Part shown: positions 42,859 to 54,211 of the stretch, piece by piece | Position numbering within the stretch: the first letter of the stretch is position 1 | Layout of the letters: each line of letters opens with the position of its first letter | Source: Kiloniellaceae bacterium | Lineage (GTDB): Bacteria > Pseudomonadota > Alphaproteobacteria > Kiloniellales > J153 | Length of the DNA stretch: 64,000 nucleotides | Assembly: GCA_021776095.1 (NCBI GenBank) | Contig: JAJFGO010000059.1 | Location: 1 to 64,000, forward strand | Reading direction: 5' to 3' | Notes under the pieces: generated by a model | Databases searched by the model: none | What the model saw: only the letters and a program-made list of their open reading frames with translations | What the model was told of the DNA's origin: nothing | Made by a program: the position numbers and the translations under genes

Positions 42859-43992
42859 ATGCGGAATTCCGGGACATCGGAACCGTGGCGAGTTGGGGTT
42901 CTGTTTTCGCGCAGTGGCTGTATGGCGCTGATCGAAGAAACGCAGTTACGCGGTACCCTGACCGCCATAGACGAGATCAACGAAGCCGGCGGCATCAATG
43001 GCCGGCCGATTGAACCGGTCATGTACGATCCCGCTTCGGAAGCCTCGAGCTTCGGGCATTGCGCCAAGCGGTTGATGGTTGCAGACGGCGTGACGACGAT
43101 CTTCGGTTGCTATACCTCGAGCAGCCGCAAGGCTGTGCTGCCGGTGGTGGAGCGACTTAACGGTCTTTTGTGGTATCCGACCCTTTACGAGGGTTTCGAG
43201 TTTTCCCCGAACGTCATTTATACCGGCGCGGCGCCCAATCAAAATAGTGTCGAATTGTGCCGCTATTTGATGGAGCACTACGGCAAGAGGTTCTATTTCG
43301 TCGGTTCGGATTATGTGTATCCACGCGAATCGAACCGCATCATGCGGGAACTGGTTCGCCACAACGGCGGCGAGGTCGTGGGAGAGCGTTACCTTAACCT
43401 GCGCGCGAAACGACGAGATTTTGTTCCCGTCATGCGCGATATTCGCGATGCCGCGCCGAACGTGATTTTCTCTACCGTCGTAGGCGATTCGACCGTCTAC
43501 CTATATCAATCTTACGCCGACCTGGGCTTCGATTCGAAGACCATGCCCATAGCCAGCCTGACGACGACCGAGGCCGAAATTAAGGCCATGGGATACGATG
43601 TGGGCGAAGGCCATATCACGGCCGCACCGTATTTCCAGGGTTTGAGCGGAGAAAGGAACACGGCGTTCGTGAGCCGTTTCAAATCGCGTTACGGCGAGGA
43701 TCAAGAGACCAACATGTGCTTGGAAGCGGCGTATTTTCAGGTTCATATCTTTGCCAAGGCTTTGGCCCAGACGAACTCGATGGATACGGAAATACTGCGG
43801 CCGACAGTCCTAGGGTCCGAGGTTCTGGCGCCCCAGGGCAAAGTATCGATCAATCCTCTTTGCGGGCATACCGATCTGTGGACACGTGTCGGCCGGGCGA
43901 ACCGCCGTGGCCAGTTCGACCTGGTCTACGAGTCATTGGCTCCGGTCAGGGCCGATCCCTATCTCATCGGCTATGGACGATCCATTGCCTAA
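42859..43992 (+). CDS. amiC: AmiC: cytoplasmic amide sensor and negative regulator of AmiR
   Basis: A 377-residue type I periplasmic-binding-protein fold without a signal peptide, matching AmiC of Pseudomonas (385 residues) along its length: GVLFSRSG, the CYTSSSRKAVLPVVERL region, LLWYPTLYEGFEFSPN, APNQNS, and VGSDYVYPRESNRIMREL. In Pseudomonas AmiC binds short amides and releases the antiterminator AmiR. AGGAGG precedes the ATG. Overlaps amiR by 20 bp. It resembles the transporter's own binding protein at 45015 (shared DEINEAGGING/EEINDAGGING and STVVGDS), so sensor and receptor have a common origin. Confidence 0.93.
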   Translation: MRNSGTSEPWRVGVLFSRSGCMALIEETQLRGTLTAIDEINEAGGINGRPIEPVMYDPASEASSFGHCAKRLMVADGVTTIFGCYTSSSRKAVLPVVERLNGLLWYPTLYEGFEFSPNVIYTGAAPNQNSVELCRYLMEHYGKRFYFVGSDYVYPRESNRIMRELVRHNGGEVVGERYLNLRAKRRDFVPVMRDIRDAAPNVIFSTVVGDSTVYLYQSYADLGFDSKTMPIASLTTTEAEIKAMGYDVGEGHITAAPYFQGLSGERNTAFVSRFKSRYGEDQETNMCLEAAYFQVHIFAKALAQTNSMDTEILRPTVLGSEVLAPQGKVSINPLCGHTDLWTRVGRANRRGQFDLVYESLAPVRADPYLIGYGRSIA

Positions 43993-44740
43993 GGTTGATC
44001 GAGCAGATCGCATGCCTGACATCAGCAAAAACCCGTACCGGGTTAACCGCCCGCAGTCCCTCGTGCTCGGCGGTGTTACGTCGGGAACGCCGTCGGAGAA
44101 AAACTCTTTCGGCGATCGCCACATCCCGTCGCGGCGAGGCGCTCCCTCGGGTCAGCACCAGTTTCAACGCCAGTTCGGCAATCTTGAAGTCGCCGTTATC
44201 ACCGCCCCGGACGAATCCGGCGAGCAATTGATCCGGGAAATTCGCCGCACGCGGGCACAAGTTCGCCATATCTGGCCGGTCCCCGAGCTTATTCCGACCA
44301 CCTTCGACGTTATTTACTGCGATCTTCTGGAAGATTTGCCGCAGCGCCTTCCTTGGCTTCCGGGGGATCCGGTGGCAACCCTCATTCTAATCGTGGATAC
44401 CTTGAAGCCGCTCGATCTCGATTTGCTGCACAACTGTGCGCCCCATGCCGCGGTATATCAGCCCGCCACGGCGCCGGCGGTTCTTTCCAGCTTGCTCGTC
44501 GGGCGCAGCCATTTTCTGTATGAACGCCGGCTGCGTGGACGGATTCTAAAACTTGATGACAACCTGCGCACCATGCGGAGCGTGGAGCGGGCGAAAGCAA
44601 TTTTGATGCGGAGCCGCAAGTTAAGCGAAGAGGAGGCCTATCATTATCTGCGCGGCCAGGCGATGGAGCGCCGGGTGACGATAGGTGCGCTGGCGAATGC
44701 GATCGTTGACTCTCATGACCTCTTGGGCAATAGTACCTAG
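43973..44740 (+). CDS. amiR: AmiR: ANTAR-domain transcription antiterminator
   Basis: An AmiR-type regulator of up to 255 residues. Residues about 65-180 form a degenerate receiver-like domain (LEVAVITAPDESGEQLIREI), then a coiled-coil-like helix (RRLRGRILKLDDNLRTMRSVERAK) and the C-terminal ANTAR RNA-binding domain (AILMRSRKLSEEEAYHYLRGQAMERRVTI in part). ANTAR binds paired hexaloop hairpins and prevents terminator formation. The N-terminal 60 residues are extra compared with Pseudomonas AmiR (196 residues); ATG 44012 is an alternative start. Its stop is two bases before the first leader hairpin, so the regulator is transcribed ahead of its own target. Confidence 0.93.
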   Translation: MDDPLPKVDRADRMPDISKNPYRVNRPQSLVLGGVTSGTPSEKNSFGDRHIPSRRGAPSGQHQFQRQFGNLEVAVITAPDESGEQLIREIRRTRAQVRHIWPVPELIPTTFDVIYCDLLEDLPQRLPWLPGDPVATLILIVDTLKPLDLDLLHNCAPHAAVYQPATAPAVLSSLLVGRSHFLYERRLRGRILKLDDNLRTMRSVERAKAILMRSRKLSEEEAYHYLRGQAMERRVTIGALANAIVDSHDLLGNST

Positions 44741-44742
44741 AC

Positions 44743-44859
44743 GCACCGAGAAATCGGCGCACGAGATTGTTTAAGGTGGCAACGACGCCACCGGAAATAA
44801 AACAGGCACAGTAGCCCCACGTTAGGCGCGGTTTCATCGCGTTTTCGGGGGCTTTTTTT
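44743..44859 (+). promoter_or_regulatory. ANTAR leader module 1: paired hairpins plus intrinsic terminator
   Basis: Hairpin P1 at 44743-44760: GCACCG / CGGCGC with one mismatch, loop AGAAAT (A at 1, but A rather than G at 4). Hairpin P2 at 44775-44792: GGTGGC / GCCACC, loop AACGAC (A1 and G4, the ANTAR consensus). Terminator at 44813-44859: AGCCCC pairs with GGGGCT around a nested CGCG hairpin, followed by seven T. This order, dual hairpin then terminator, is that of leaders antiterminated by AmiR/NasR/EutV-type proteins. Confidence 0.8.
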
Positions 44860-44861
44860 GT

Positions 44862-44979
44862 GGATTTGACGATCCGGGCCGGTGGTCCGGTTAGGGCGGC
44901 AATGGTGCCGCCGATAAAAGATGTGTCTCAACAATTGAGCCCCAGTGCCAGCGGTCTGCTGATGTGCCCTGGGGCTTTT
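44862..44979 (+). promoter_or_regulatory. ANTAR leader module 2: second hairpin set plus terminator
   Basis: P2 at 44895-44912: GGCGGC / GCCGCC with loop AATGGT (A1, G4). It starts exactly 120 bp after P2 of module 1 and shares flanking bases. A P1 is less clear: CCG / CGG at 44879-44890 with loop GTGGTC has G4 but not A1. Terminator at 44938-44979: AGCCCCAG / CTGGGGCT around a nested CAGC/GCTG hairpin, then TTTTG. The module seems to be a duplicate of the first, so the transporter-amidase genes sit behind two attenuators in series. Confidence 0.75.
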
Positions 44980-45014
44980 GTGTTCTAAACACCGTAAAAA
45001 CGAGGGACAGGGAA

Positions 45015-46265
45015 ATGAACAGGCTTGGAAGAAGAAGGTTTCTAAAGGGAACGGTTGCTACGGCCGGGGTCGCGGCGGCAGGTTTTCCGCACATTTGGAT
45101 CAAGGATTCCTCTTTCGCCTACGCGGCGAGCGGCAAGGTCAAGGTCGGCGTGCTCTTCTCTCTGACCGGCACCACGGCGATCGTTGAAGAGTCGCTGCAT
45201 AAAGCGACGATTATGGCGATTGAAGAAATCAACGATGCCGGTGGAATAAACGGCATGCAAATCGAAGCGGTGGTAGAGGATCCGGCCTCGGACCCGGCCA
45301 CATTCGCCGAAAAGGCTCGTAAACTGGTCCTTGGCGACAAGTGCGTCAGTGTCTTCGGATCTTACACATCGGCGAGCCGCAAGGCGGTTCTGCCGGTGTT
45401 CGAGAAGCGCAAAAATCTCTATTTCTACCCGACCCTCTACGAAGGCCGGGAATGTTCCAAAAACGTGGTCTACACGGGCGCGGTGCCGAACCAGCAGCAG
45501 GACGATTTCGTGCCCTGGCTGGTCGAGAAATTCGGCAAACGCTGGTACCTGATCGGGTCGAACTACATCTACCCCAAGGAAGAAAACAACTATTGTAAGA
45601 AGCTCTTGGCCAGCCTCGGCGCCGAGGTCGTCAACGAAGAGTACGTGCCCCTCGGTCACTCGGAATTTTCTTCGGTTATCAATAAGTTCCGCAGCGAGAA
45701 GCCGGACGTGATCTTCTCCACGGTCGTCGGAGATTCGGTGGTCGCGTTGCACCGTCAATACCGTGCAGCCGGGCTTGATCCCGACACCATGCCAATGGCT
45801 AGCCTTACCACCTCGGAGAACGAGGTTGCCGCCATGGGCCCAGATGCGGCCGCAGGTCACTTCACCTCGGCACCCTATTTCATGGTCTGGGATTCGCCGG
45901 AGAACCAAAATTTCGTGGAGGCCTATCGCAAGCGTTGGGGCGGGGACAAGGTCACCCACTTCGTTTCAGAGCCGTCGTATTTCCAAATGTATCTGTTCAA
46001 GCAGGCGGTCGAGAAACTCGCCCCTGGCGATATCAACCCGGCGAACATCCGCGAGGCCATTAAGGGCGAAGAAATGGTGGCGCCTCAGGGCCGGGTAAGA
46101 ATCGAGCCCGAGAATCTACATACCTACCTCTGGCCGAAAATTGGCCAATGCCAGTCGGACGGCCAGTTCCAGATCCTCAAGCAAACGTCCGAGTGGCTGG
46201 AGCCTTTGCCCTACAAGGCTTATCCGAATCAAGTTTGTAAAGAGTCTGGGCTCAAAGAGACCTGA
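45015..46265 (+). CDS. Urea/short-amide-type ABC transporter substrate-binding protein (UrtA-like)
   Basis: A 416-residue periplasmic binding protein exported by Tat: NRLGRRRFLKGTVATAGVAAAG is a twin-arginine signal, cleaved near the AYA-AS site. The body (KVKVGVLFSLTGTTAIVEES, NDAGGINGMQIEAVVEDPASD, YPTLYEGRECSKNVVYTGAVPNQ) belongs to the UrtA/AmiC group that binds urea and small amides. AGGGAA precedes the ATG. A stable hairpin lies after the stop. First gene behind the double attenuator. Confidence 0.92.
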   Translation: MNRLGRRRFLKGTVATAGVAAAGFPHIWIKDSSFAYAASGKVKVGVLFSLTGTTAIVEESLHKATIMAIEEINDAGGINGMQIEAVVEDPASDPATFAEKARKLVLGDKCVSVFGSYTSASRKAVLPVFEKRKNLYFYPTLYEGRECSKNVVYTGAVPNQQQDDFVPWLVEKFGKRWYLIGSNYIYPKEENNYCKKLLASLGAEVVNEEYVPLGHSEFSSVINKFRSEKPDVIFSTVVGDSVVALHRQYRAAGLDPDTMPMASLTTSENEVAAMGPDAAAGHFTSAPYFMVWDSPENQNFVEAYRKRWGGDKVTHFVSEPSYFQMYLFKQAVEKLAPGDINPANIREAIKGEEMVAPQGRVRIEPENLHTYLWPKIGQCQSDGQFQILKQTSEWLEPLPYKAYPNQVCKESGLKET

Positions 46266-46369: not shown

Positions 46370-47239
46370 ATGGAAACTTTCCTGGCACAGATCATTACCG
46401 GCTTGAGTATCGGCTCAATACTTTTGTTGGTAGCCTTGGGTCTGGCAATAATCTATGGGACCACCGGCGTCATCAATCTGGCGCATGGCGAGTTTGTCAT
46501 GCTCGGCGCGTACAGTGCGTGGGCGCTGCAAACTTTTCTCGGTCTCGGGCTTATCGAAAGTTTGGTGCTGATCTTTCTCATCACGGCGGCCTTTGGCTGG
46601 GTCATCGAAAAGGTCGTCATTCGCCACCTTTACCGCAGACCTTTGGATACGATTCTCGCCACTTGGGGTATAGGGGTTATGGCGCAGCAGGCTATCCGGC
46701 TCTCCGCCGGCGGCGAACTGCGTTATGTCGAAATGCCATCGGCGCTGGGCAGCAGCGTCTCAGTCCTAGGCGTGGAAACCTCGGCATTTCGGATCTTCAT
46801 CCTGCTGTTCACCGCAGCGCTATTCGGGGTCACCTGGTATCTTATGTACCGAACCAGTGTTGGTATGAAATTGCGCGCGATCACGCAGGACCGCGAGGTG
46901 GCTAGCTGCTTCGGCATCAATAGTCAACGTACCTACAGCTTGACGTTCGCCTATGGGACCGGTCTTGCCGGCCTGGCTGGGGCCCTGGTCTCGCCCCTCA
47001 AGAGCGTTTCGCCGGAGATGGGCACAACCTATGTAGTGGATGCCTTCATGGTGGTGGTCCTGGGCGGCGTTGACAGCCTGGTCGGCACCGTGGTGAGCGC
47101 CGCGATCCTTGGTGAGCTTACTGGATTCCTAGCCTTCCTTAGTAACGACACGATCGCAAAGGCCCTGGTCCTGCTCACGATCGTGATCCTAATACGGTTC
47201 CGCCCACAGGGACTTTTCGCGGCAAGAACGCGGACATGA
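46370..47239 (+). CDS. Branched-chain/urea-type ABC transporter permease 1 (UrtB-like)
   Basis: A 289-residue LivH/UrtB-type permease: IYGTTGVINLAHGEFVMLGAYSAW is the family's first conserved block, GMKLRAITQDREVASCFGINSQRTY the coupling loop, and VVLGGVDSLVGTV the C-terminal block. The N-terminal extension of about 250 residues often seen in UrtB is absent, as in amide-transport homologues. Confidence 0.9.
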   Translation: METFLAQIITGLSIGSILLLVALGLAIIYGTTGVINLAHGEFVMLGAYSAWALQTFLGLGLIESLVLIFLITAAFGWVIEKVVIRHLYRRPLDTILATWGIGVMAQQAIRLSAGGELRYVEMPSALGSSVSVLGVETSAFRIFILLFTAALFGVTWYLMYRTSVGMKLRAITQDREVASCFGINSQRTYSLTFAYGTGLAGLAGALVSPLKSVSPEMGTTYVVDAFMVVVLGGVDSLVGTVVSAAILGELTGFLAFLSNDTIAKALVLLTIVILIRFRPQGLFAARTRT

Positions 47240-47286
47240 ACAGAGACAAATATGAAAGCTAAGCCAGTTACGAAGGACCCGAGCGT

Positions 47287-48417
47287 GTGAAAAGAGGAAC
47301 TGCGATACAACTGGGTACATACGGGATCGTTTGCTTGGCTTTCCTGCTGGTTCCCAGCTTCGTGGACGACGCGTTCATATTGAACAAATATGCGCGGTAT
47401 CTCGTGCTGGGAATTCTGGCGGTCGCACTCAGCTTGTCGTGGGGTTACACCGGTATTCTCAATCTCGGGCAGGCCATGAGTTTCGGTCTGGGCTCCTATT
47501 GTATGGCCATGGTCCTGAAGCTGCGCACCGTGCCGGTTCATACCGGCAAGGCTGGGCTCCCCGATTTCATGGTGTGGAATAACGTGGACACGCTTCCATG
47601 GTTTTGGGAGCCGTTTCATTCCATGGCTTTCGGCCTCTTCGCCGGCATCGCGGTCCCAGTTGCGCTGGCGGCGTTGCTTGGTTGGTTCGTCTTTCGCGGG
47701 CGGGTTACCGGTGTTTATGTCGCAATTATTACGCTTGCCACATTGGTCGTGGTCAACCTCATGATTATCGACCAGCAGCGTTTTACCGGCGGCTTCAACG
47801 GCATCACCGATCTGGCGCAGCTTGAGATATTTGGACTGACGTTCGACGCCTATGGCAGCTCCTCATACTACCTGATAGCAGCCGCGTTAACGTTTTGCCT
47901 GTTTTTCGCGCTGGCTGTGACGAAGAGCAAGGCTGGCCTGGTTCTTCAGGCGATCCGGGATAACGAAAACCGGGTTCGCTATTTCGGCTATGACGTCGCG
48001 TTCTTCAAAATTTTCGCATTCTCGGTCTCGGCCGGCATCGCCGGCATCGCCGGTATGCTTTACACGATCGTGATGGAATTCGCCTCGCCGACCTTTCTCG
48101 GTGTGCAGTTGAGCCTGTCGGTTGTGATCTGGTGCGCGGTTGGCGGACGCCAAAGTCTGCTTGGTGCGGCGCTCGGTGCGATCATTGTGACAGGCATGCA
48201 GGGCGCGCTTTCGGAATCCGAGACATTCTTGAAAACCTGGACACTCATCATGGGCTTCATATTTGTGGTGGTGGTGCTGTTCCTGCCGAAGGGATTGGCG
48301 GGCGTGGTGGAGGGCCTTTCGAACCGCGTTTTTGGCCACGGCGACTCTTCAAAACCTGAACCGAATATCGTTCCCGATTCCCTTGGTGCGAAAAGCGAAG
48401 CGGAGAGCCTTCGATGA
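47287..48417 (+). CDS. Branched-chain/urea-type ABC transporter permease 2 (UrtC-like)
   Basis: A 376-residue LivM/UrtC-type permease with conserved SWGYTGILNLGQAMSFGLGSYCMAM and the coupling loop LVLQAIRDNENRVRYFGYDVAFFK. Start is GTG 47287. The C-terminal 40 residues are a polar cytoplasmic tail. Its TGA overlaps the next ATG. Confidence 0.9.
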   Translation: MKRGTAIQLGTYGIVCLAFLLVPSFVDDAFILNKYARYLVLGILAVALSLSWGYTGILNLGQAMSFGLGSYCMAMVLKLRTVPVHTGKAGLPDFMVWNNVDTLPWFWEPFHSMAFGLFAGIAVPVALAALLGWFVFRGRVTGVYVAIITLATLVVVNLMIIDQQRFTGGFNGITDLAQLEIFGLTFDAYGSSSYYLIAAALTFCLFFALAVTKSKAGLVLQAIRDNENRVRYFGYDVAFFKIFAFSVSAGIAGIAGMLYTIVMEFASPTFLGVQLSLSVVIWCAVGGRQSLLGAALGAIIVTGMQGALSESETFLKTWTLIMGFIFVVVVLFLPKGLAGVVEGLSNRVFGHGDSSKPEPNIVPDSLGAKSEAESLR

Positions 48418-49178
48418 GCAAAAATGGCCAGGAGCACCTCGTCCTGACCGGGGTCGTGGTCAGCTTCAACGGGTTTCAAGCTGTGGATGGGTTAACGCTG
48501 AAGGTATCGAAGGGCGAGCTGCGGTGCATTATCGGGCCGAACGGCGCCGGAAAAACCACTGCACTCGATACGATATGTGGCAAGACCGGTCTCACCGCTG
48601 GCAGCATCACGTTTATGGGAAAAAGGATCGACAACCTGGAAGAGCATCAGATTGCCCGCGCCGGGATCGGCCGGAAATTCCAGGTGCCCAGCGTATTCCG
48701 TGATCTGACAGTGCACGAAAACCTTGAGGTCGCCCGTAGCAAGCGTTCGGGCGTGCTTGCCAACGCCTTCTGCTTCGAAAGAGATTCGGAGCGGGAGGAG
48801 CTCGAGAAACTGGCCGAATTTATTGGTTTGCAGGAGTGCCTCGAGATTCCGGCCGGGCACCTGTCCCACGGCCAGACTCAATGGCTCGAGATGGCGCTTC
48901 TGGTTGCTCAAGATCCGGAACTTATCCTCATGGATGAGCCGACGGCGGGCATGACGGTTCAGGAAACGCACAAGACCGCCGAGCTGTTTATCCGCCTCAA
49001 GGAAAAGCACACGCTGATCGTCGTTGAACACGACATGGGATTCGTAAAGGAGATCGGCGACGTGATTTCGGTCATGCATCAAGGAAAATTGCTGGCCGAA
49101 GGTACTGTTGAGCAAATCGCGGAACATCCGGAAGTTAGGTCCGTCTATCTCGGAACCGGAGGAATTGGCAGTGCTTGA
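48414..49178 (+). CDS. Urea/amide-type ABC transporter ATPase 1 (UrtD-like)
   Basis: A 254-residue LivG/UrtD-type ATPase: Walker A GPNGAGKTT, the UrtD-like IARAGIGRKFQVPSVFRDLTV stretch, the variant signature LSHGQTQWLEMAL, Walker B LILMDEPTAGM, and switch VVEHDMGFV. LSHGQ in place of LSGGQ is typical for UrtD. The stop lies within the start region of the second ATPase. Confidence 0.92.
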   Translation: MSKNGQEHLVLTGVVVSFNGFQAVDGLTLKVSKGELRCIIGPNGAGKTTALDTICGKTGLTAGSITFMGKRIDNLEEHQIARAGIGRKFQVPSVFRDLTVHENLEVARSKRSGVLANAFCFERDSEREELEKLAEFIGLQECLEIPAGHLSHGQTQWLEMALLVAQDPELILMDEPTAGMTVQETHKTAELFIRLKEKHTLIVVEHDMGFVKEIGDVISVMHQGKLLAEGTVEQIAEHPEVRSVYLGTGGIGSA

Positions 49179-49866
49179 GCTCAGCAATGTTGATTCCTAT
49201 TACGGCAATAGCCGCGCCCTGCAGGACGTTTCTCTGGTGGTCGGCGAAGGAGAGTTCGTGAGCGTGCTTGGCCGTAACGGTGTGGGCAAGACGACGTTAT
49301 TGCGCACGATCATCGGCCTGATGGACCGCTCGACAGGCAATATCAAGCTTGATGGTGTGGAGATCGGTGGTCGGCAGACCCACGAACGCGCGGTGGCCGG
49401 CATCGGTTATGTGCCGCAGGGGCGGGGGATTCTTCCGAAATTTACCGTTCGCGAAAATCTAAAAATGGGAACTTTCGCAAGCGCTAAGGGCGGCGGCGAC
49501 ATCGGCGAGTGGGTTTTCGAGCTTTTTCCGATTCTGAAGGACTTTCTTGACCGCCCTGGCGGGAACCTATCCGGTGGTCAGCAACAGCAATTGGCGATCG
49601 CCCGCGCACTGCTGACCGACCCAAAAATAATTCTGCTCGATGAGCCGACAGAGGGTATTCAGCCGAATATCGTCGAACGAATTGAGCAAATTCTTGTGGA
49701 ACTCAATCGCAAGCACGGCATGACCGTCATTCTCGTTGAGCAGAATGTCGAATTCGCCCGGCGTGCATCCCAGCGGTTTTTCGTAATGGAACGGGGCAGT
49801 GTCGCGGCAAGCGGATCCGTCTCCGAACTGACGGACGAACTCGTTCATCGGTACATGGCGGTGTAG
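49171..49866 (+). CDS. Urea/amide-type ABC transporter ATPase 2 (UrtE-like)
   Basis: A 231-residue LivF/UrtE-type ATPase: Walker A GRNGVGKTT, signature LSGGQQQQLAIARAL, Walker B IILLDEPTEGIQPNIVERI, switch LVEQNVEFA. The UrtE-like GIGYVPQGRGILPKFTVRENL is complete. GTG 49171, overlapping UrtD by 8 bp with GGAGG ahead, gives the standard VLELSNVDSYYG start. Confidence 0.92.
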   Translation: MLELSNVDSYYGNSRALQDVSLVVGEGEFVSVLGRNGVGKTTLLRTIIGLMDRSTGNIKLDGVEIGGRQTHERAVAGIGYVPQGRGILPKFTVRENLKMGTFASAKGGGDIGEWVFELFPILKDFLDRPGGNLSGGQQQQLAIARALLTDPKIILLDEPTEGIQPNIVERIEQILVELNRKHGMTVILVEQNVEFARRASQRFFVMERGSVAASGSVSELTDELVHRYMAV

Positions 49867-49921
49867 ATGGGCGTACCGCAACAACGTTCGGAGCAACTAC
49901 TGATCAATAGTGGAGGAAAAG

Positions 49922-50962
49922 ATGTATCACGGCGATATCTCTAGCAGTAACGACACAGTCGGCGTTGCGGTTGTCAACTTTAAGATGCCACGGCTTCACA
50001 CCAGAGATGAGGTCCTGGATAACGCGCGCAAAATCGGCAAGATGGTCGACGGCATGAAATTGGGCTTGCCGGGTATGGACCTCGTCATCTTCCCCGAATA
50101 CAGCACCCACGGGATCATGTATGACGAGAAGGAGATGTACGAAACGGCCTCGGCTTGCCCGGGCGAAGAAACCCAGATTTTCGCGGAGGCCTGCATTCGC
50201 AACAAAGTTTGGGGTGTGTTTTCCCTGACCGGCGAGCGGCACGAGGATCACCCGAACAAGGCGCCGTATAACACCTTGATCCTGATGAGCGACGAGGGCG
50301 AGATCGTCCAAAAGTATCGGAAGATCATGCCTTGGGTGCCGATCGAGGGCTGGTATCCCGGCAACTGCACCTACGTCAACGACGGCCCGAAGGGCTTGAA
50401 GATCAGTCTGATCATCTGCGATGACGGCAATTACCCCGAGATCTGGCGCGATTGCGCCATGAAAGGCGCCGAGTTGATCGTTCGCTGCCAGGGCTACATG
50501 TACCCGGCCAAGGAACAGCAGGTCATCATGTCCAAGGCGATGGCCTGGGCAAACAACTGCTATGTGGCCGTCGCCAACGCATCCGGCTTTGATGGCGTCT
50601 ATTCGTACTTTGGCCATTCGGCGATCATCGGCTTCGATGGCCGGACCATGGGCGAGTGTGCCGAAGAGGAAAACGGTATTCAGTATGCCGCGCTCTCGAC
50701 GTCGATGATCCGCGATGCCCGGCGCAATATGCAGTCGGAGAACCATCTGTTTAAGCTGCTGCATCGCGGTTACACGGGCCGAATCAATTCGGGCGACGAT
50801 GACCGTGGCCTAGCGGCTTGCCCCTATGATTTCTATACAAAATGGATCACCGACCCAGAGGGAGCCCGCGATATGGTCGAGGCCATAACGCGGCCGACGG
50901 TCGGAACCGACGAGTGCCCAATGGAAGGTTTGCCGAATCAAAAAACGGCAGCACACCGATAA
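49922..50962 (+). CDS. amiE: AmiE aliphatic amidase
   Basis: A 346-residue nitrilase-superfamily amidase, the same length as the Pseudomonas enzyme and with the same start ([17 protein letters not shown]). The catalytic triad is at identical numbers: Glu59 (VIFPEYS), Lys134 ([10 protein letters not shown]), Cys166 ([14 protein letters not shown]). It hydrolyses acetamide, propionamide and similar short amides to carboxylate and ammonia in the cytoplasm. GGAGGAAAAG directly precedes ATG. It lies behind the importer and is under AmiR antitermination through the leader at 44.7-45.0 kb. A 14-bp hairpin follows. Confidence 0.97.
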
Positions 50963-51008: not shown

Positions 51009-51103
51009 CGTCACCGACCTTATGGTCGTTTGCCAATATTCGACTGGTAAGGGGCCCTGGGGTGCCAGGATCAGAGTTATCATTTTCACACGAGCCGAGA
51101 GCA

Positions 51104-51901
51104 ATGGACCTGGACGACTACCGAATAAGCCAAGAGCCGTACTACCGAATGGTCGGAAACGAGGCGGACTTGTTTGAAGCCGCCTATGCCGATCGCATGC
51201 CCATGATGCTCAAGGGCCCGACTGGATGCGGCAAGACCCGTTTCGTCGAATACATGGCGTGGAAATTGGGCAGGCCCCTGATAACCGTGGCCTGCCATGA
51301 GGATATGACGGCATCCGACCTTGTCGGCCGCTTCTTACTCGACGCCACCGGCACGGTCTGGCACGATGGGCCCCTTACCTTAGCCGTGCGCCATGGGGCG
51401 ATTTGCTATTTGGACGAGATTGTCGAAGCGCGCCAGGATACCACCGTCGTTATACACGCCCTTACGGACGAACGCCGGATCTTGCCTCTTGAAAAGAAGA
51501 ATGAAGTCATTCAGGCGCATGAGGATTTTCAACTCGTCATTTCATATAATCCTGGCTACCAGAGCGTTCTGAAAGATCTCAAGGAATCCACTAAGCAGCG
51601 ATTCGGCGCCATCAGCTTCGACTATCCGCCACGAGACGTGGAGGGAGAGATCGTTGCGCACGAGTCCGGGGTGGAGGCACCGATCGCCTCTCATCTAGTA
51701 AAGATCGGCGAACGCTCACGAAATTTGAAGGGCCACGGTTTAGACGAAGGCGCGTCCACGCGCATGCTGATACATGCCGGACAACTCGTCGGTCGTGGTA
51801 TTGCGCTTGGCGAGGCTTGCCAGGTCGCGCTCGTTTTGCCGATTACCGATGATCCCGACATGCGGGATGCACTGACCTCGGCCATCGCCGCGTGCGCCTA
51901 G
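51104..51901 (+). CDS. MoxR-type AAA+ ATPase (NorQ/CbbQ-like)
   Basis: A 265-residue AAA+ protein: Walker [10 protein letters not shown], Walker [12 protein letters not shown], sensor 1 [10 protein letters not shown], and an arginine-finger region [14 protein letters not shown]. CbbQ/NorQ proteins remodel enzymes together with a von Willebrand A-domain partner, and the next gene encodes one. The classical ami operon has its own AAA-type gene (amiB), so this may be a functional counterpart. ATG 51104 is preferred over 51062. Confidence 0.9.
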
Positions 51902-51916
51902 ATCTGCGTCCGGGGC

Positions 51917-54211
51917 ATGAACGCAAGACAACGCCCAGATTTCCTGAAATTGGTCGCAGCTAAGGCGGATCTCCCCGATGGCGGGGCCCTGACGGATGAA
52001 GCGCGCCAGGCCTTTCCCGATGCCGATGCGGCGCGTTGGTTACATGCCGTTCGTAAGTTGTCGCAAGCCGGCTATGGCCAGAGCGTGGTCGCATCCTATA
52101 CCAAACATTCAGTCACCATCGCGCGGCAGGTAGGTCCGGGACCGGCTATCGAGTTGGCTGATCTTGTCTCGACGCTGGCCGTGAAGTCGGGGCGAAATGC
52201 GGCTGAACTTTTGCCCGCGGCCGCGCTTCAAGCGGCGGTACGCCTTAAGGAAGATCACCGCCTGCGGTCCTGGCTTGACCTTATCGAGCGGTTTGCCACG
52301 CTGGCGCCAGAGTCCGTGACGCCGTTGCTCGAACGTGCTGACAGGCTCCTCAGCACATTGAATCTTGCACGTTTCAAGGCCTGGATCCTTGCTGGCGTCC
52401 GATCGGGCGGTGGCGATGCCAAGCGGCGCCTGCGTTTCTTCACCTTCGAAGACCCAGACGCCGAGCGCTGGCTGCAGCGCGAGGCCGGCGAAGTCATCTT
52501 CGCCGATATCGAGCGCCGCCTTAAGGCCTATCTCATCGCCTTGTGGCGGATCCGCGCGCCCATCCGCGAACCGGCGCCAGGAGGTTCGCCACAATCGTGC
52601 CGCCGTACGAGCTTCGGCCGTGGGCTTATCCGCCTGCCATCGACCTTCAGCGGCTATCGGGGTGAGCAGGCGGCGGAGATATTTCGTGCCAGCCTTGCCC
52701 ATGTCGCGGCGCACTTCATGTACTCAGGCCCGAAATTTCCGGTTCGAAGCCTAAAACCCGTCCAGGTATCCTTGATCTCGCTCATGGAGGATGCTCGGGT
52801 CGAACATCTCGCAATGCGCGATCTCCCGGGGCTGCGCCGACTTTGGTTGCCTTTTCACATCGCTCAACCATCGGGCGCGTTTGTCGCGCCGAACCTATTT
52901 GCCCGCTTGGCACGCGCTCTGATCGACCCGACTTTCGACGACCCCGACGGTTGGGTTCAAAAAGGCCGGAGGCTGTTTTTCAGTCGCGAGGCCGAGTGGG
53001 AAAACCCTGAGATTTGCCGCGAAATCGGTGGCCTGCTTGGTAACGACCTCGGCCAGATGCGTGTTCAGTTCAACGCCCGTACCTATGTTGTGGAGCCGCC
53101 CTACCGCGACGACAATCTGGGTCTTTGGGATTTTGAGGATCAAGCCCCAGAGGATCGTGAAGAAATGGAACTACTGTTCGAGTCGATTCGGATCGAGCAG
53201 CAGGACGAGGACGACGAGTCCCCGCCGGATCGCGAGCGTGAGGAGCAAGAACAACGCGAAGACGAGGAGGTCAATCGCGCTTCGGTCTCGACGCAAGTCT
53301 ACGAAGAGGAAGGAATTCCTGTCGCGCGCTACAGCGAGTACGACTATCTGACCGGCCGGGAGCGGTCCGAGTGGACTACGATTGTTGAATATCAGCCCAA
53401 ACCTGGGCCTGTGAATCAGATCGATTCCATCCTGGACGAACAGCACGATCTGGTTGAGCGCATCACCGCGCTCGTCCGCTCTGCGCGGGTAAGTCGTCCA
53501 CAGCGTGTACGGCGCCAGGCGGAAGGCGAAAATCTGGATATCGACGCCTGCATTCAGGCGGTCATTAGCCGCCGTTTAGGCGAGACCCCCGATCCGAGGG
53601 TCTATGCGACGTTTCAGCGACGTCACCGAGATCTTTCGGTCCTGGTACTGCTGGACATTTCCGAATCGACAAAGGACCGGGCTCGTGGAACGGTCTCGTC
53701 CGTATTGGATATGGAGCGTCAGGCAACGGCGCTTTTGGCTCATGCCATGGCCGGGCTCGGCGACCCCTTTGCCATAGCTGGCTTCTGCTCGAACCGGCGC
53801 GACGATGTACGCTACTACCGGATCAAGGACTTTGGGTCCCCCTACGATGCCATGGCCCGATCCTACCTGGCCGGGATTGAAGGCGGGCTTTCGACCCGGA
53901 TCGGGGCCGCAATCCGGCATGCGGGCGCCGATTTGAAGCGTCAGCTCACGCATCGCCGCCTTTTGCTCATTGTCACGGACGGCGAACCCTCGGATATCGA
54001 CGTCACCGATCGGAAATATTTGGTGGAAGATGCGCGCAAAGCCGTCAATACCCTGGCCGGAGAGGGAATCGATACCTTTTGCGTTGGCCTGGATTCCGGC
54101 GGAGACAGCTACCTCACGCGTATCTTCGGGCGCCGTAACGTGGCTCAGATCGACCGGCTGGAGCGCCTGCCGGAGCGCCTTCCCATGCTTTATCTTCGCC
54201 TTACGGCCTAG
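51917..54211 (+). CDS. Large VWA-domain protein (NorD/CbbO-like), partner of MoxR ATPase
   Basis: A 764-residue cytoplasmic protein. The first 250 residues are helical repeat-like, the centre contains an acidic stretch (about 425-455, rich in Glu/Asp/Arg), and the last 190 residues are a von Willebrand A domain with an intact MIDAS: LLDISESTKD (DxSxS), a Thr in LSTRIG and Asp in LIVTDGEPSD. With the adjacent MoxR it forms a CbbQO/NorQD-type activation pair. Its target in an amidase operon is unknown; AmiE itself needs no metal cofactor. Confidence 0.88.
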   Translation: MNARQRPDFLKLVAAKADLPDGGALTDEARQAFPDADAARWLHAVRKLSQAGYGQSVVASYTKHSVTIARQVGPGPAIELADLVSTLAVKSGRNAAELLPAAALQAAVRLKEDHRLRSWLDLIERFATLAPESVTPLLERADRLLSTLNLARFKAWILAGVRSGGGDAKRRLRFFTFEDPDAERWLQREAGEVIFADIERRLKAYLIALWRIRAPIREPAPGGSPQSCRRTSFGRGLIRLPSTFSGYRGEQAAEIFRASLAHVAAHFMYSGPKFPVRSLKPVQVSLISLMEDARVEHLAMRDLPGLRRLWLPFHIAQPSGAFVAPNLFARLARALIDPTFDDPDGWVQKGRRLFFSREAEWENPEICREIGGLLGNDLGQMRVQFNARTYVVEPPYRDDNLGLWDFEDQAPEDREEMELLFESIRIEQQDEDDESPPDREREEQEQREDEEVNRASVSTQVYEEEGIPVARYSEYDYLTGRERSEWTTIVEYQPKPGPVNQIDSILDEQHDLVERITALVRSARVSRPQRVRRQAEGENLDIDACIQAVISRRLGETPDPRVYATFQRRHRDLSVLVLLDISESTKDRARGTVSSVLDMERQATALLAHAMAGLGDPFAIAGFCSNRRDDVRYYRIKDFGSPYDAMARSYLAGIEGGLSTRIGAAIRHAGADLKRQLTHRRLLLIVTDGEPSDIDVTDRKYLVEDARKAVNTLAGEGIDTFCVGLDSGGDSYLTRIFGRRNVAQIDRLERLPERLPMLYLRLTA

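Follow-up and report, generated by a model that had tools for sequence, protein, structure and literature searches.

The 64-kb stretch of DNA analysed here, referred to as the window, lies on one contig (C77) of a Kiloniellaceae bacterium genome of 4.98 Mb and 122 contigs, which is 95.4 % complete and 4.4 % contaminated. The operon under study consists, in order, of genes encoding an AmiC-like sensor and AmiR, a 274-nt leader (44741–45014), a urtA-like gene, urtB–E and an aliphatic amidase gene (Table 1). The components of an AmiC–AmiR amidase control system are thus encoded together, and amiC-amiR are located before the transporter–amidase block, as reported in an earlier note on this DNA. 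AmiR, which combines AmiR_N and ANTAR domains, is encoded immediately 5' of the leader and would be the cognate protein of its first module. The start of amiR was placed at the ATG at 44012 by comparison with AmiR proteins of relatives, and the product matches AmiR 1qo0 (phmmer, 2.1e-15). The urtA-like protein matches TIGR03407 (2.2e-125), yet falls under the cut-off of that model.

As in the AmiC–AmiR–amiE system of P. aeruginosa, an AmiC-type sensor and an AmiR_N+ANTAR protein accompany an aliphatic amidase placed behind an attenuator. In the window, the regulator genes precede the attenuator and urtABCDE and amiE come after it, whereas the ami gene order of P. aeruginosa is unlike this plan.

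Residues of EutV that contact RNA have been named (PMC8934654), and in an alignment with an inferred 2-residue offset Y164, K149, E160, R168, M172 and R175 are identical in the window AmiR, K143 and K147 are replaced by Arg, and R142, N173 and R177 are not kept. The window ANTAR protein carries the G4-reading tyrosine.

Table 1. Positions of the genes, hairpins and terminators of the operon, and of additional sites 5' of amiC in relatives
Feature	Position	Strand	Evidence
amiC-like gene, amide/urea-binding sensor protein (Peripla_BP_5)	42859–43992	+	Pfam PF13433, E 1.6e-140
amiR, AmiR_N + ANTAR antiterminator protein	44012–44740	+	PF21332 5.3e-15, PF03861 4.1e-15 (longer frame)
Module 1 hairpin P1, GGTGGC[AACGAC]GCCACC, 6-bp stem	44775–44792	+	Sequence, RNAfold, model R1
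Module 1 linker, 12 nt	44793–44804	+	
Module 1 hairpin P2, GGC[ACAGTA]GCC, 3-bp stem, A1/G4	44805–44816	+	Overlaps 5' arm of terminator 1
Intrinsic terminator 1, AGCCCC..GGGGCT, 7-T run	44813–44859	+	-23.5 kcal/mol
Module 2 hairpin P1, GGCGGC[AATGGT]GCCGCC, 6-bp stem	44895–44912	+	Sequence, RNAfold
Module 2 degenerate P2, CTC[AACAATT]GAG, folded CTCAA[CAA]TTGAG	44927–44939	+	Sequence, RNAfold
Intrinsic terminator 2, GAGCCCCAG..CTGGGGCTT, 4-T run	44937–44979	+	-23.1 kcal/mol
urtA-like gene, substrate-binding protein, first gene past the gates	45015–46265	+	PF13433 9.6e-144
urtB, urtC, urtD, urtE, transporter genes	46370–49866	+	NCBIfam equivalogs above cut-offs
amiE, aliphatic amidase	49910–50962	+	NF009802 aliphatic amidase, 705.8 bits (cut-off 427)
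Pre-amiC sites in relatives	L120:2091–2132, L122:2107–2147, L118:2085–2124, L119:2083–2122, L017:3496–3535, L126:5738–5777 (-)		

Hairpins and terminators of the leader

The earlier note had described two 6-bp hairpins with hexaloops AACGAC and AATGGT, 120 bp apart and each followed 20–25 bases later by an intrinsic terminator. Both hairpins are present, with starts 120 nt apart, and terminators 1 and 2 begin 20 and 24 nt past them, respectively. These hairpins had, however, been taken for the downstream member of each pair, preceded by imperfect hairpins with loops AGAAAT and GTGGTC. In the ANTAR motif of Ramesh et al. 2012 (PMC3369931), P2 forms at the foot of the terminator stem on its 5' side, and the hexaloop hairpins are therefore P1, the first hairpin of the motif, while the upstream loops fall outside it. 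The pairing of AGAAAT with AACGAC and of GTGGTC with AATGGT was rejected because the hexaloop hairpins lie clear of the terminators, whereas module 1 has an overlooked second hairpin, the true P2, that overlaps its terminator, and because relatives have P1 and P2 in common rather than the upstream loops (by eye). A short hairpin of unconserved sequence is often found 5' of module 1 P1 (44741–44774 in the window, and in relatives). The stretch before module 1 folded with z < -1 in 11 of the 18 leaders tested (7 of 25 were too short and were dropped), and that before module 2 in 6 of 14.

Both stems of module 1 are 3 bp or longer and carry A1/G4 hexaloops (AACGAC and ACAGTA), and bases 44813–44816 belong to P2 as well as to the terminator 1 stem. 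The linker is inside the 5–12 nt range of Enterococcus faecalis eut, and linkers of 13–17 nt, past this range, occur in many relatives. For nascent RNA to 44820, RNAfold predicted both P1 and P2, and once the 3' arm of terminator 1 was present the terminator replaced P2. Each half of the leader is predicted to fold more stably than its dinucleotide shuffles (z -4.9 and -3.1). A general-purpose terminator scan listed neither terminator, probably because it permits loops of 3–8 only. On this sequence evidence, the best reading of module 1 is that of an intact AmiR-controlled gate (gate 1).

In module 2, the P1 loop likewise has A1/G4, with RNAfold additionally pairing A1 with U6, and a terminator with a run of 4 T only lies downstream. 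The place of P2 is taken by CTCAACAATTGAG, folded by RNAfold into a 5-bp stem with a triloop, and an A1/G4 hexaloop P2 was found here by neither the finder nor the covariance model R1 described below. In three sister species of the same genus, module 2 comprises P1, a 13–14-nt linker and GGC[AATGAT]GCC, which leads into GCCCCAGTG, the terminator arm; the window retains this arm and P1. A blastn search with the leader DNA returned nothing at the orthologous site of the three same-genus genomes, yet these genomes retain hairpins, loops, linkers and terminators at this site. The view that both modules are AmiR sites is thus supported for module 1 and not supported for module 2 of the window, where P2 is degenerate and gate 2 looks like a leaky gate with a degenerate control half.

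Recurrence of the plan in relatives

Sixteen loci were taken via protein alignment of six AmiR, and further loci came from Pfam AmiR_N searches of 9 family, 61 order, 385 class and 398 phylum genomes and from a plasmid search; six loci (L004–L007, L009 and L012) were excluded as duplicates. One rule set was applied to 62 leader regions, each being the first 320 nt past an AmiR-like gene. Of the 62 regions, 25 contained one or more dual hairpins overlapped by a terminator and 37 contained none, among them that of the second AmiR_N+ANTAR gene of the source genome (contig C98, L011). Two modules were found by this unified rule set in 10 of the 25 (L013, L014, L015, L022, L024, L112, L118, L119, L120 and L121), compared with one module in 2 of 1240 dinucleotide-shuffled leaders and two modules in none. 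Other rule sets detected a second module in L017 and L090 (first loop CGCGCG) and also in L116, whose module 1 P2 is 2 bp only. Among 26 more loci from the phylum search, two modules were found in L152 and L153, a stray match in L145 and none by script in 23. Two modules in series, the arrangement described in the earlier note, are hence a real and recurrent architecture and occur in 15 relatives (one with the 2-bp P2) from several AmiR lineages. Eight plasmids were fetched from 40 listed (180 records in total); four have two modules and L123 (Aestuarium zhoushanense plasmid) has one, and no module after amiR was found by the unified finder in the plasmid loci L122, L124 and L125. Applied to both strands of the full window, the rule set found module 1 only, and in 10 whole loci of relatives its sole stray match was intragenic (L015:5240).

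These frequencies bear on the possibility that the amiC-amiR transcript merely stops at terminator 1, with urtA transcribed from a separate promoter and the hairpins incidental. Two consecutive terminators after a regulator gene could provide insulation, and a weak sigma-70-like match (44706–44734) leaves room for a leader promoter. From 44740 to urtA, however, the scans for these two promoter types found no sigma-70-like match and no sigma-54-like match at ≤2 mismatches; promoter-like sites (2 vs 3.7) and sigma-54-like matches (22 vs 28.9) were both fewer than in shuffles. The occurrence of dual hairpins with overlapping terminators in the 25 leaders also argues against this reading as a whole, which is regarded as very improbable. 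The suggestion of AmiR/ANTAR antitermination 5' of the transporter–amidase genes is supported.

Twenty modules from 14 loci of relatives, the window being excluded, were used to build the covariance model R1. Module 1 was matched at 44776–44816 with 35.9 bits, the first match in the window and in the genome, where 150 of 7004 first-look candidates were scored. Module 2 came second at 24.2 bits, with its P1 half and a stub aligned, next to a background of 24.1 bits at another genomic site. Sites lacking a visible terminator in other genomes (L059–L061) score about 32 bits with R1; the 35.9 bits of module 1 are by themselves only modestly higher, and the remaining support comes from the overlapping terminator. 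In a regulon search of the source genome, the sites after the two in the leader scored 24.1 bits and below, and five of them that showed no terminator by eye were treated as noise. In all 20 training modules P1 and P2 are closed by GGC/GCC, and 160 of 160 pair cells are standard in modules that had been selected for pairing. Covariation is weak, with both partners changing in 2 pairs, a level also reached by 10 of 500 shuffles and by a slide of +3 columns, and the evidence therefore lies in the recurrence of the plan rather than in covariation. R1 finds sites in the non-training loci L112, L116, L118, L119, L120 and L121, the first module of L118 reaching 15.9 bits only and those of L119–L121 being unlisted. 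At the cut-offs of the two R1 searches, matches were obtained in at least 29 of 385 genomes class-wide and at least 13 of 61 order-wide, counts that are no census since 16 and 105 candidates, respectively, were scored per genome. Rfam 15 gave no match in the window at the gathering threshold, nor in 44700–45060 at E ≤ 1; R1 provides a site model for an element reported by no Rfam 15 family at this leader.

It is conceivable that both gates respond to AmiR in the window, either with CTC[AACAATT]GAG acting as a P2 with a 7-nt loop or with P1 being sufficient. This hairpin overlaps the terminator arm as a P2 should, and EutV binds isolated single hexaloops (PMC8934654). Moreover, the single module of L123 (P1 loop AACAAC) has, by eye, the P2 GGC[AACATCA]GCC, a 7-nt loop also beginning with AACA that resembles the odd P2 of the window; being the sole module there, it implies that a 7-nt loop may work. 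Against this, the GGC/GCC closure of P2 is invariant in the training modules, the P2 loop of window module 2 is without any G and RNAfold favours the 5-bp stem with the CAA triloop, while in eutP A1/G4 changes in either loop, or a change of a P2 stem base, cut induction (PMC3369931). An AmiR-responsive gate 2 in the window is consequently considered unlikely.

Loops and evolution of the two-module state

Comparison of relatives' leaders, proposed in the earlier note as a check, gave different results for single and two-module leaders with respect to the A1/G4 pattern. This pattern is kept in 22 of 22 loops of the 11 single leaders found by script (L016, L018, L019, L020, L021, L023, L025, L026, L088, L098 and L115), whereas 28 of 60 loops in the 15 two-module leaders depart from it (both counts by hand tally), mostly through G1, with G4 retained in 53 of the 60; L013 is the sole two-module leader with four canonical loops. 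With relatedness ignored, Fisher tests gave 1.7e-5 for loops and 1.6e-6 for leaders (1.0e-5 with L123 counted as an odd single), and 3.8e-4 when the two-module leaders were merged into six lineages of the author's grouping. L131, L135, L139, L141, L100 (single, odd P1) and the window were kept out of both loop counts, and as the scripts demand some canonical loop bases, odd-loop single leaders are missable, L123 being one that was seen by eye. For a difference between the modules in their affinity for AmiR, the support is only indirect and comes from the loops of two-module leaders, which fit tuned affinity and redundancy-relaxed selection alike. Naturally occurring ANTAR sites in the relatives whose loops are changed (G1, A4) could help to test the roles of individual loop bases.

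In an AmiR tree of 25 proteins (14 two-module, the window being so labelled, and 11 single; L152, L153 and L123 left out), the two-module label requires at least 4 changes, of which 2 are forced by starred branches, and 10 of 22 inner branches are open. A single origin of the two-module state was rejected by the AU test on these proteins (p 1.7e-7), and gains or losses therefore recur.

An alternative to a function for the tandem is that it represents a duplication without added function, in which the spare module drifts and the window shows the end of the drift. The relaxed loops, the vanished P2 of window module 2, the 2-bp P2 of L116 and the shorter T run of terminator 2 (3–4, vs 6–7 in terminator 1) in all four genus members are in line with such drift. 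It fits less well with the retention of G4, the persistence of both terminators over several lineages and the recurrent gains or losses noted above, and drift as the whole explanation is held to be rather doubtful.

Several minor observations were made among the relatives. In L131, L135, L139 and L141, which have another AmiR type, there is a single R1-scored site downstream of the gene, and its second loop begins with T, e.g. GGC[TATGTA]GCC, and in L135 a carbon-nitrogen hydrolase gene (Pfam) follows the site. In L115, a terminator-like stem (CTCTTC..GAAGAG) with a T run and no recognisable dual hairpin precedes the sole complete module (by eye) and is perhaps a decayed first gate. The AmiR of L017 (labelled Mesoflavibacter) and L118 (Roseateles, UNVERIFIED_ORG) group with alphaproteobacterial records, which points to questionable organism labels or to transfer of the operon.

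Proposed control of the operon and related systems

From the sequence and folding models taken together, the leader is probably an AmiR-controlled attenuator of tandem descent, in which gate 1 is intact and the antiterminator of gate 2 is degenerate. On a transcript presumed to run from amiC, RNA polymerase would transcribe amiC-amiR first, and both sensor and antiterminator would be made before terminator 1 is reached; since these genes precede the gates, sensor synthesis would be possible in the off state. Without amide, AmiC would hold AmiR and terminator 1 would form. With amide, AmiR would be freed to bind P1 and P2 of module 1, and because the 3' arm of P2 is the start of the terminator stem, a held P2 would block terminator 1.

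Past gate 1, the polymerase would reach a further gate of like design. Where gate 2 is complete, as in the sister species, both gates would have to open and the leak would be multiplied down. Gate 2 of the window, which has P1 and a strong stem and appears to have lost the canonical P2, would most likely be a fixed leaky attenuator or a gate poorly opened by AmiR. An arithmetic example with invented efficiencies (95 % termination per gate, 80 % induced read-through) gives a 16-fold response for one gate and 256-fold for two, with the maximum dropping from 0.80 to 0.64.

An R1 site was also observed 5' of amiC in L017, L118, L119, L120, L122 and L126 (18.6–42 bits), with a terminator confirmed by script in L120 and L122 and by eye in L017, L118, L119 and L126, which suggests that AmiR may control its own operon in these relatives. 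No such site was found by R1 or the rule set in the window, L014 or L015, and L013, with only about 114 bases 5' of amiC, is uninformative. A more tentative proposal, rated at somewhat under an even chance, is that in amiCR-urt operons AmiR reads two purposely different gates along a single transcription path (three in some relatives, with the pre-amiC site), one with strict A1/G4 loops and one with altered loops, for a sharp and leak-proof response resembling that of a tandem riboswitch yet read by a single protein, gate 2 of the window now being a fixed attenuator.

The motif and the mechanism are already known. In the ANTAR antiterminators of eutP/G/S/A in E. faecalis, nasF in Klebsiella and amiE in P. 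aeruginosa, as here, two short A1/G4 hexaloop hairpins are separated by a short linker, P2 is within the 5' arm of the terminator and a cognate ANTAR protein is present (PMC3369931); unlike in those, two modules are serial in one leader here, and the second of the window has lost its P2. The statement that known leaders have one antitermination site each may be too strong, as at least 13 attenuation systems are spread over six transcription units in Desulfotomaculum acetoxidans, which thus has, like the present operon, more than one ANTAR attenuator per unit; the available text of PMC3369931 leaves unstated whether two of them occupy one leader, and some may. Two serial attenuators in one leader are also known from tandem riboswitches and the mgtCBR leader (PMC9481103, PMC3641672), although these respond to metabolites or to leader-peptide translation, whereas in the present leader a single RNA-binding protein would act on both attenuators. 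The available text of the literature searched, including PMC3369931, PMC8164766 and PMC8934654, contained no account of paired ANTAR modules within a single leader, and the two-in-series layout, which recurs in relatives and is apparently half decayed in the window, therefore appears to be new. Tandem riboswitches render gene control more digital (PMC9481103), and a counterpart in which one protein reads two copies of the module would make this idea testable with a single regulator and with natural single- and two-module relatives.

Two further observations concern genes around such sites. AAA/CbbQ-type ATPase and VWA-domain genes adjoin the 3' side of the amidase gene (window 51062–54211, Pfam), a gene of similar ATPase type seems to be present past amiR in L027 (Acidisphaera), and the ATPase–VWA gene pair may be part of the amide system. 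In genome G005, a solitary dual hairpin with a terminator (L127:9221–9263, minus strand, 46.8 bits) is followed by genes assigned by Pfam to a permease of the cytosine/purine type, an alpha/beta hydrolase and an amidase, and is likely to be a second AmiR target.
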